From positions 3,658,001-3,722,000 of the forward strand of contig NZ_CP020946.1 in NCBI RefSeq assembly GCF_002208115.1: a stretch of 64,000 nucleotides of DNA, given 5' to 3'. Every line of letters begins with the position of its first letter. The first letter of the stretch is position 1. Positions 43,686 to 46,412 of this stretch are shown piece after piece. Made by a program: the position numbers and the translations under genes. The notes under the pieces were generated by a model, which was given only the letters and a program-made list of their open reading frames with translations, searched no databases and had not been told where the DNA came from. This DNA comes from Bdellovibrio bacteriovorus. Lineage in GTDB: Bacteria; Bdellovibrionota; Bdellovibrionia; Bdellovibrionales; Bdellovibrionaceae.

Positions 43686-45338
43686 ATGAAGAAAGCACTC
43701 TTGGCGTTCGCCTTTCTTTTTTCTGCCCAGGCGTTCGCGCTTGTGGATATGAAAAATGCCAACTACTCCAACACCTGGATTGATATGGATGTTCCAGGCA
43801 GCGGGTATGATCTGAAAATCGTGCGCACCTATAACAGCCGTTCTCTTTTCAACGGTATGTTTGGCTTCGGCTGGTGTTCTGATTTTGAAACCGCGATGGA
43901 AGTCACTGCCGAAGGCAACATCAAGGTGAAAGAATGCGGTGGTGGTCTTGAAGTGACCTTCTCTCCTCGTGAAATCACCCGCAAGGATGTCGACAGCTCT
44001 ATCGCCCAGATCGTGAACAAGATGAAAGCGGAAAAGAAAGTCGGCCTGACAGAGGCGGCGATCAACACGCTGAAGACACAGTTACTTGAAGACGACAGCC
44101 TGCGTGCGGAATATGCCCGTCAGTACGGAATCACGGTTCCGGTAAAAGAAGGCACCAAATTCTACGCCAACGGCCGTGAAGTTGAGCACTTCATTTTCAA
44201 CAAAACCTATTACACCAGAAATCTTCCTGATGGCAGTTCCCAGCGCTTCAGCCCGCAGGGAAAACTGACTCATATCTATGACAAGAACAACAACTTCCTG
44301 AAATTCGACTATGACAAGGACGTGATCTCCACGCTCCAGGACAACAATGGTCGTCGTCTGACTTTCAAATACTTCCAGAACAAAAAAGTAAAAACCATCA
44401 CCGGTCCCAACGGTCTGATGGCGGAATACAAGTTCGCCAATCTGGATGACCTGGCTTCCGTAAAGAATGCCTGGTTGAAAACATACACTTACGAATACGA
44501 TGAACTTCACAATCTGACCAAGGCGACCTGGCCGGATAAAACGTTTGTCGCCTTGAAATACGACAAACAAAAAGACTGGGTTCTGGCGTTTGCAGACCGC
44601 GATAAGTGTATCGAGACCTACAAGTACGAAGACTCTCCGACAGATCCAAAAAATCACTACTGGTCCACAGTGAAAAAGACCTGCGGCAAAGAAGTGATGG
44701 CGGATAATAAATATGAATTCTGGCACCAACAGCGCGCGGACGGTCAATATTACCTGCAGCGTGTGATGACGACCGTAAACGGCAACGTCACAGACATCAC
44801 TTACCATGAGGTCTTTGGCAAACCCGTTTCCATCCGTCGCAATGCCGACCGTATCTCTTACGAATACTATCCAGATGGCCTGGTGAAGGTGAAAGCCGCA
44901 CCAAACATGAAGATGGCATTTGAGTACGATCCGAAGGTTAAAAAGGTCAGCTCTGTGAACAGCACTTACTTCAATGAAAAAGGTGCCAAGGTGGCCGTTA
45001 AAGCCGCTCAGTTCAAATACGATGGCAAAGGAAACCTTGCCTATGCCCAGAACAGCGATGGCCAGAAGATCAATATGACATATGATAACCGCGGCCGTAT
45101 TGCGACCATTACAGATCAGGCCAAGAAAGTGGTTAAAATCGAGTACGAGGAACGCTATGGGAAGCCATCTGTAGTTACCCGTCCCGGTTTGGGCACAATT
45201 GTGGTAAGCTATAAACCAAATGGTGAAATCAGCAAAGTGGACAGCAAAGAGGGGCCATCTGTAGCTATGCAGGTAGCCAGCACATTTAATAACCTCTTGG
45301 ATATCATTGCTCCCGCAACTGCGGAACTTTACCTCTAA
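43686..45338 (+). CDS. Secreted RHS/YD-repeat protein (Bd0109-like, hit locus)
   Basis: 550 residues. The signal peptide MKKALLAFAFLFSAQAFA precedes a DUF6531-like N-terminal region (WIDMDVPGSGYDLKIVRTYNSRS) and several YD-type repeats (for example FDYDKDVISTLQDNNGRRLTFKY, YTYEYDELHNLTKATWPDKT, MTYDNRGRIATITDQ). RHS repeats build beta-rich shells or surface fibres. In B. bacteriovorus this gene (Bd0109) neighbours Bd0108 and has been linked to pilus status and prey-independent growth (from memory of published work). GGAAGAGG precedes the ATG. It lies between the Tad cluster and the hit gene. Confidence 0.88.
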   Translation: MKKALLAFAFLFSAQAFALVDMKNANYSNTWIDMDVPGSGYDLKIVRTYNSRSLFNGMFGFGWCSDFETAMEVTAEGNIKVKECGGGLEVTFSPREITRKDVDSSIAQIVNKMKAEKKVGLTEAAINTLKTQLLEDDSLRAEYARQYGITVPVKEGTKFYANGREVEHFIFNKTYYTRNLPDGSSQRFSPQGKLTHIYDKNNNFLKFDYDKDVISTLQDNNGRRLTFKYFQNKKVKTITGPNGLMAEYKFANLDDLASVKNAWLKTYTYEYDELHNLTKATWPDKTFVALKYDKQKDWVLAFADRDKCIETYKYEDSPTDPKNHYWSTVKKTCGKEVMADNKYEFWHQQRADGQYYLQRVMTTVNGNVTDITYHEVFGKPVSIRRNADRISYEYYPDGLVKVKAAPNMKMAFEYDPKVKKVSSVNSTYFNEKGAKVAVKAAQFKYDGKGNLAYAQNSDGQKINMTYDNRGRIATITDQAKKVVKIEYEERYGKPSVVTRPGLGTIVVSYKPNGEISKVDSKEGPSVAMQVASTFNNLLDIIAPATAELYL

Positions 45339-45353
45339 GGAGAAGGTGATTAT

Positions 45354-45659
45354 ATGAAAAGACTCTTGGTTCTTTCCATCTTGCTGACCCTGGGCTTCTC
45401 CTTTGCGGGAACGGCCTCTGCTGACGAAAATGCCAACCGCCCGGTAAACCCTGGCGAAGACCCGAATGAAGCCTTCAGATCGTCTCCTTTTGAGGCGACG
45501 ACATCGGCTTTGGGTGACTGCCGTGAGTGTATCGCCTACCGTACCGGCGCCACCACGGGCAAAGGCTCCCGTCGCCATGACGACACTGTTTCCAGAGAAA
45601 TCAAAGGCTCCAGCGCGACGCCCGGTGGATCTGAGAAATCCGGCACCGGAAGACAGTAA
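45354..45659 (+). CDS. hit: Host-interaction protein (hit, Bd0108-like), wild-type allele
   Basis: 101 residues. A signal peptide (about 1-23, cleaved after TASA) is followed by a short hydrophilic, Gly/Ser/Thr/Arg-rich mature part with a Cys pair (DCRECIAYRTGA). Two copies of CAAAGGCTCC at 45560-45569 and 45602-45611 are exactly 42 bp apart. Recombination between them would remove 14 codons in frame; this deletion is the lesion repeatedly described in host-independent B. bacteriovorus. Both copies are present here. A strong terminator follows. AAGGAG lies 10 nt upstream of the ATG. It is 15 bp after the RHS gene, so the two are co-expressed. Confidence 0.9.
   Translation: MKRLLVLSILLTLGFSFAGTASADENANRPVNPGEDPNEAFRSSPFEATTSALGDCRECIAYRTGATTGKGSRRHDDTVSREIKGSSATPGGSEKSGTGRQ
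45560..45611 (+). repeat. 10-bp direct repeats, 42 bp apart, inside the hit gene
   Basis: Copies of CAAAGGCTCC occupy 45560-45569 and 45602-45611. Their 42-bp offset equals the size of the recurrent hit deletion in host-independent isolates, marking a slippage or recombination hot spot. Confidence 0.95.
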
Positions 45660-45696
45660 TCCCATCTGTCTAGAAACCTGACACTCGCCTTACACA

Positions 45697-45730
45697 AAAG
45701 GGCTTTGGACATCCAAAGCCCTTTCTTTTT
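45697..45730 (+). terminator. Strong terminator after the hit gene
   Basis: A 12-bp stem (AAAGGGCTTTGG/CCAAAGCCCTTT, loop ACAT) is followed by a T-rich stretch. It ends the Tad-hit transcript. Confidence 0.92.
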
Positions 45731-45750
45731 GCCCTGAAACCCTCCGAATT

Positions 45751-45765
45751 GTCTCACCCTGAGAC
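45751..45765. promoter_or_regulatory. Perfect 6-bp-arm palindrome, operator-like
   Basis: GTCTCA-CCC-TGAGAC lies about 84 bp before a small secreted protein gene. It matches a near-palindrome at 8275-8291. A regulator is not known. Confidence 0.4.
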
Positions 45766-45848
45766 GAAAACTCTGGCACACGCGATGCAATAGACCTCAT
45801 TGAGTTCTTAATGATGTTTTTAAGTGTGTAAGAAAGAAGGAGAGTTTT

Positions 45849-46049
45849 ATGAAGAAAATCGTACAAGCCACTATTGCTATGTCTTTGATCGCCTCTGTGG
45901 CAATGGCAAACACGGGTGTTTCTTGCAAAAACAACAGCGGAAGCGGTCGTCATTCCTCGACAGCGTTCAAGCAGGAGTTCAAAGCGAAGGTTGCTAAAGA
46001 CACTTCGACGAAGACTTCCAAAGAGAAAACAAGCAAAGGCTGGAACTAA
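45849..46049 (+). CDS. Small secreted Lys/Ser/Thr-rich protein
   Basis: 66 residues: a signal peptide (MKKIVQATIAMSLIASVAMA) and a 46-residue mature part with one Cys, rich in Lys, Ser and Thr. AAGGAG stands 6 nt before the ATG. It is monocistronic: a palindrome upstream and a strong hairpin with T-run downstream frame it. No family is recognised. Its position right after the hit locus makes it a candidate for surface or predation roles (inference only). Confidence 0.78.
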   Translation: MKKIVQATIAMSLIASVAMANTGVSCKNNSGSGRHSSTAFKQEFKAKVAKDTSTKTSKEKTSKGWN

Positions 46050-46085
46050 TCCACGCGCTTTGGCTTGAATTGAATATGCCCCCTA

Positions 46086-46142
46086 GGGAGAGTGACTATC
46101 CCCCCTTACAGTCGCTCTCCCTTCCCCTTTTTTAAAAAAGGG
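46086..46142. terminator. Terminators between convergent genes
   Basis: A 12-bp stem (GGGAGAGTGACT/AGTCGCTCTCCC, one G-T pair) ends the plus-strand gene. A second perfect palindrome CCCTTTTTTAAAAAAGGG at 46125-46142 serves the minus-strand transcript that converges. Confidence 0.8.
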
Positions 46143-46151
46143 CAGGGTGAA

Positions 46152-46412
46152 CTAGCGAATCGCTTTTTCGTGAGCGCCTTCCTGGAATCCGTCCACCGTG
46201 CTGGCCACGCCATCACCCAAGGAACGACCCAGATTTCTGATCGCCATGGCACCACCAGCGGCCGCACTTTGAATATACTGAGACACCGTGGATTTCTGCA
46301 ACCAGCGGAAAGAATGAGATTCAATCGAATCGCCGCCCACTTTCACCTGCATCAAAACAATCAGCAAGGCTGTCGCAGCAAAGCACTTCAATACAAATTT
46401 AAGTTCTTCCAT
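46152..46412 (-). CDS. Small membrane-anchored protein after a response regulator
   Basis: 86 residues with an N-terminal hydrophobic helix (FVLKCFAATALLIVLMQV) and a Gly/Ala/Ser-containing amphipathic rest (SAAAGGAMAIRNLGRSLGDGV). No family is recognised. Its start lies 14 bp inside the end of the CheY-like gene, so the two are translationally linked. Possibly a membrane output or interaction partner of the regulator (inference). Confidence 0.72.
   Translation of the reverse strand: MEELKFVLKCFAATALLIVLMQVKVGGDSIESHSFRWLQKSTVSQYIQSAAAGGAMAIRNLGRSLGDGVASTVDGFQEGAHEKAIR

Follow-up and report, generated by a model that had tools for sequence, protein, structure and literature searches.

The gene at positions 45354–45659 (plus strand) of the 64-kb window, by which we mean the whole stretch of DNA analyzed here, is the wild-type bd0108 (hit) gene of Bdellovibrio bacteriovorus SSB218315, intact and of the predatory type. 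We put at roughly 93% the probability of the explanation as a whole, namely that a wild-type bd0108 would lose 42 bp in frame through its direct repeats, and a conserved block with them, leading to growth without prey and involving no phase switch. In this account, the repeats, the reading frame, the identity with HD100, the loss of the motif and the restricted distribution come from the present analysis; the mutant frequency, the pilus phenotype and the binding of Bd0109 are drawn from the literature.

What identifies the gene? The orthologue of hit ORF4 starts with ATG, has 101 codons (101 aa), opens with MKRLLVLSILLTLGFSFAGTASADENANRPVNPGEDPNEA and has an N-terminal signal sequence and a C56-x-x-C59 motif. 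Its protein is 98% identical to HD100 Bd0108 over 101 residues. Specifically, 16 of 306 bases differ; two of these changes replace residues (S44T and S96A, window to HD100) and 14 are silent, and because 14 of the 16 are synonymous, the gene is under purifying selection. No Pfam family was found for Bd0108, which has been reported to be intrinsically disordered (PMC4267844). SSB218315 is a soil isolate (PMC5941755), and its bd0108 lies directly 3′ of bd0109 and of tad/flp pilus genes, the pilus identity being taken from ORF order and PMC5941755. The bd0109 orthologue (43686–45338, plus strand) encodes a 550-aa RHS/YD-repeat protein (DUF6531 and RHS_repeat), and its stop codon is 15 bp 5′ of bd0108. 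A terminator-like hairpin with a 12-pair stem and a T-rich tail stands 3′ of bd0108 (45697–45724, plus strand); it is weak alone, as chance would give about as many terminator-like hairpin matches across the region.

The first-pass annotation had described a 101-codon secreted-protein gene at these positions with direct repeats starting exactly 42 bp apart, and the sequence confirms this. Copy 1 of CAAAGGCTCC is at 45560–45569 (plus strand; codons 69–72, coding bases 207–216) and copy 2 is at 45602–45611 (plus strand; codons 83–86, coding bases 249–258). The segment lost in the published in-frame deletion, RRHDDTVSREIKGS, corresponds to 45570–45611 (plus strand; residues 73–86; PMC3818213 Fig S1 legend, PMC4267844), and a 42-bp loss starting anywhere from 45560 to 45570 gives the identical product. 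Loss of one CAAAGGCTCC copy and the spacer gives an in-frame protein of 87 aa that lacks residues 73–86 while its gene keeps one copy. Reconstruction of this product bears out the annotation's account of a deletion of 14 codons, in frame, that leaves one repeat. The annotation had also mentioned a recurrent 42-bp deletion in bd0108, and here the published segment matches letter for letter (PMC3818213, PMC4267844, PMC3013116). Indeed, the deletion published for HID22 is this same segment with 10-bp direct repeats on both sides (PMC3818213; residues 73–86 in PMC4267844; PMC3013116). When the gene is aligned to HD100, the repeats fall at equal coding positions, 42 bp apart, with no difference in the position or size of the recurrent deletion; HD100 bd0108 and its HID22 allele (PMC3818213) share the length of 101 aa, the repeat sequence, its coding positions and the 14 residues removed. 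The hit locus of 109J (PMC3013116), compared via its published description, likewise has a 10-bp direct repeat around a 42-bp deletion. The hot spot in the window is therefore correctly and precisely observed, yet already known.

Repeats of this kind are not rare. The repeat statistics were computed on the 64-kb window, which contains 10 repeat pairs of at least 10 bp at a spacing of 10–60, seven of them at multiples of 3. Given the same protein and local codon usage, the probability of an exact 10-bp match at the bd0108 site is ~1.2% (0.012), and that of any 10-bp repeat no more than 150 bp apart within bd0108 is ~2.3% (0.023). The CAAAGGCTCC pair is thus real but, as bare sequence, unexceptional, and its importance derives from the published mutants, not from the rarity of the sequence. 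The ten comparable pairs do lend something to the idea that a hit homologue happens to carry a repeat unconnected to the published hot spot. The pair's location, its length and spacing, and the residues lost are nevertheless exactly those of the published deletion, and the HD100 alignment refutes coincidence, to which we give next to no credence. The stretch between the repeats folds no better than shuffled DNA (z −0.05), which means that it offers no structural help to slippage; a slippage-promoting hairpin at this place was accordingly rejected, there being nothing beyond chance. Several small indels published for prey-independent mutants (211, 217 and 221, and a 2-bp insertion near 198 in 109J) bunch around repeat copy 1, and coding bases ~198–221 of bd0108 may form a further, different type of hot spot.

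How widely is the repeat shared? The comparison set comprises 24 genomes of the genus, including HD100, Tiberius, kdesi, LBG001, NC01, KM01, SKB1291214, ZAP7 and W. Both copies of the pair are identical in SSB218315 and HD100, and the hot spot is found in 2 of the 24 genomes. The 10-bp repeat flanking the deleted block is absent from all other homologues in the genus, where a single unrelated 10-bp pair occurs (genome G020). Tiberius bdt0101 (PMC3539863) is equal in length and position, and its protein is 95% identical to that of the window, but the repeat is broken: the two sites read TAAAGGCTCC and CAAGGGCTCC, codons 69 and 84 differ silently, and the exact match shrinks to a run of 6 bp. 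Between Tiberius and HD100 Bd0108, the replacements seen here are V31A, I83V, A96T and G97S; PMC3539863 gives three (V31A, A86T and G97S). Six residues just 5′ of repeat copy 1 are restricted to kdesi and the HD100 group. When the protein alone was searched against named genome contigs, kdesi was the only strain returned; it is too divergent at the repeat site to decide the ancestral state.

This distribution bears on the proposal of a contingency (phase-variation) element in which selection holds the two repeat copies identical so that part of a population can switch to prey-free growth. The copies are indeed identical in SSB218315 and HD100 despite 16 differing bases in the gene, and the in-frame deletion has arisen repeatedly in laboratory work. 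At ~5% divergence, however, zero changes in 20 bases are expected about one-third of the time by chance; two synonymous differences sufficed to lose the match in Tiberius, and the repeat is confined to two genomes of the genus. Moreover, a clean deletion is not precisely reversible. We consider a contingency element very unlikely, and a conserved phase switch is rejected on the distribution of the repeat across the genus. From the sequences compared, the hot spot is best read as a chance outcome of codon usage within a single group of strains rather than an evolved or conserved switch. The comparison predicts which strains can and which cannot take the 42-bp route, and SSB218315 would be expected to yield the same 42-bp mutants as HD100 and 109J.

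What does the deletion remove? Among 14 aligned homologues of Bd0108, G34, D36, C56, C59, R73 and T78 are among the invariant residues, and D76 is conserved in at least 90%. The block R73-x-x-D76-x-T78 of the family, conserved across the genus (45570–45587, plus strand; 14 homologues), lies entirely within the deleted segment. The deletion keeps the signal sequence, the N-terminal part that reportedly binds Bd0109, and the CxxC motif. Bd0109 is the reported partner of Bd0108 (PMC3818213 and PMC4267844), and pili are over-extended in the 42-bp mutant and almost lacking when bd0108 is fully deleted (PMC3818213). Loss of the block with retention of the N-terminal part and CxxC fits this difference in pilus phenotype, and loss of the block would cause the altered Bd0108 function. 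That the deletion takes R73-x-x-D76-x-T78 is new here; it singles out one conserved block whose removal from Bd0108 may bring about the change of lifestyle. The sequence of events is probably as follows. First, recombination or replication slippage across the 10-bp direct repeats would remove 42 bp in frame. Second, the shortened secreted Bd0108 would mis-set the control of pilus extrusion by Bd0108 and Bd0109. Third, growth would begin in the absence of the prey signal. The deletion would be frequent on two counts, in that the repeats would raise its rate and prey-free medium would select against normal Bd0108 function.

Published prey-independent mutants show that the 42-bp deletion is one route among several. 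In 109J, it is present in 25 of 54 prey-independent isolates and missing from 29, of which only 6 are free of any hit mutation (PMC3013116). HID2 and HID26 grow without prey despite an unmutated bd0108 (PMC3818213), as do six Tiberius isolates with the gene unmutated (PMC3539863). The broken repeat is insufficient as the reason for the unmutated Tiberius isolates, because the 109J figures indicate that frameshift routes should remain. In the part of the report consulted on a 350-isolate screen of HD100 (PMC11323537), bd0108 frameshifts and an inversion are described, and a term search of its main text returned no 42-bp deletion; as far as this part of the source goes, the 42-bp hot spot is not dominant in every screen. 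The authors of the SSB218315 genome tried three methods and never obtained prey-independent variants (PMC5941755). The annotation had further taken the allele as a marker of both the species group and prey dependence. The gene is indeed intact and of the predatory type, but the allele marks only the group of HD100, 109J and SSB218315; and given HID2, HID26 and the six Tiberius isolates, an intact bd0108 is compatible with prey dependence without being proof of it.

Strain W offers a different kind of lesion. Its Bd0108 has been reported to lack the CxxC region and the C-terminus (PMC4267844). In this genome (G002; L021/L067), one reading frame holds the N-terminal part, and the C-terminal part, which includes CPEC and the RLGDDT block, is read in another. 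The frameshift therefore explains the reported absence of CxxC and C-terminus, an account of the strain W copy that is new here. Either the frameshift arose naturally as a hit mutation or it reflects an error in sequencing.

Bd0108-like proteins following Bd0109 are the rule and not a specialty of a few strains. A small secreted-protein gene lies directly after bd0109 in all 24 genomes of the genus, as judged by the Bd0108 profile or, where the profile fails, by synteny; in G016 it is at the start of a contig, behind the end of bd0109. SKB1291214 has been reported to be without Bd0108 (PMC5941755), but a diverged gene is in place after its bd0109 (L070 3166–3447; profile E 1.4e-4). The presence of a gene at the Bd0108 position in 24/24 genomes, SKB1291214 included, is new here. 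KM01 and ZAP7 also have a diverged gene at this position. All 19 genomes sampled from other genera of the family have a small secreted-protein ORF after bd0109, and in 18 the gap is no more than 25 bp. Most of these first ORFs contain CxxC and are candidate homologues only, the Bd0108 profile having had few matches beyond the genus. In most of the family genomes sampled (L120–L139), two small secreted-protein ORFs stand after bd0109.

Beyond bd0108, a small non-coding RNA of 261 bp has been described from the hit locus (HD100 96455–96716); bd0108 mutants show strong induction of it, and a possible role in toggling replication has been suggested (PMC3818213). The corresponding stretch of the window (~45816–46077) spans a 66-codon ORF at 45849–46049 (plus strand; HD100 ORF 96683–96483) that encodes a small secreted protein of 66 aa. 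Between the window and HD100, this ORF has 13 differences, of which 12 affect the third base of a codon and 11 are silent. A profile of the protein has a match at the hit locus in 24/24 genomes of the genus, most of which have a second copy, elsewhere or adjoining. No Pfam family was found for the protein, and no known RNA family was found in 45300–46300. The hypothetical protein BD_RS00505 is already annotated at this position (PMC5941755), and its location, with Bd0103 on one side and Bd0108 on the other, suggests that it is the 66-codon ORF; the literature searched contains no paper tying BD_RS00505 to the 261-bp RNA. That the “small non-coding RNA” spans a conserved secreted-protein gene of 66 codons is new here. 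The RNA is likely the mRNA of the 66-aa protein, and no more than likely because the text of PMC3818213 does not give its strand; a dual-function RNA at the locus is possible. What has been proposed as a regulatory RNA in the lifestyle switch thus merits re-examination as a protein-coding message.

The two small proteins of the locus may be kin. Each carries a signal sequence and a cysteine, together with a short motif that closes with x-T and a tail that finishes with glycine and a few further residues. Alignment of the mature parts with hhalign scores 22.8, compared with 7.1 ± 1.6 in 200 column shuffles (maximum 13.1). With the 15 clear Bd0108 members only, the score is 17.6 against a shuffle maximum of 11.8, and without the cysteine it is 13.7 against 13.1, a reversed profile giving 5.5; HH probabilities in these comparisons range only from 2 to 50%. 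With full-length Bd0108 and 66-aa profiles, the alignment is confined to the signal peptide. At the level of sequence, these scores suggest that the C-terminal half of Bd0108 and the 66-aa protein may have a common origin. A wider proposal, which we offer tentatively and regard as rather doubtful, is that the RNA is really the mRNA of a genus-wide relative of the Bd0108 C-terminal half, that both proteins would act jointly on Bd0109, and that the 42-bp loss would remove from Bd0108 the motif they share. A third small secreted protein (MTFTKIITAAIITMSATASFGATKCADKANMGRHAHTASQSKF...), dispersed and resembling the 66-aa protein, is encoded at L086 1501–1680 (G000 C1 3362755–3362928).
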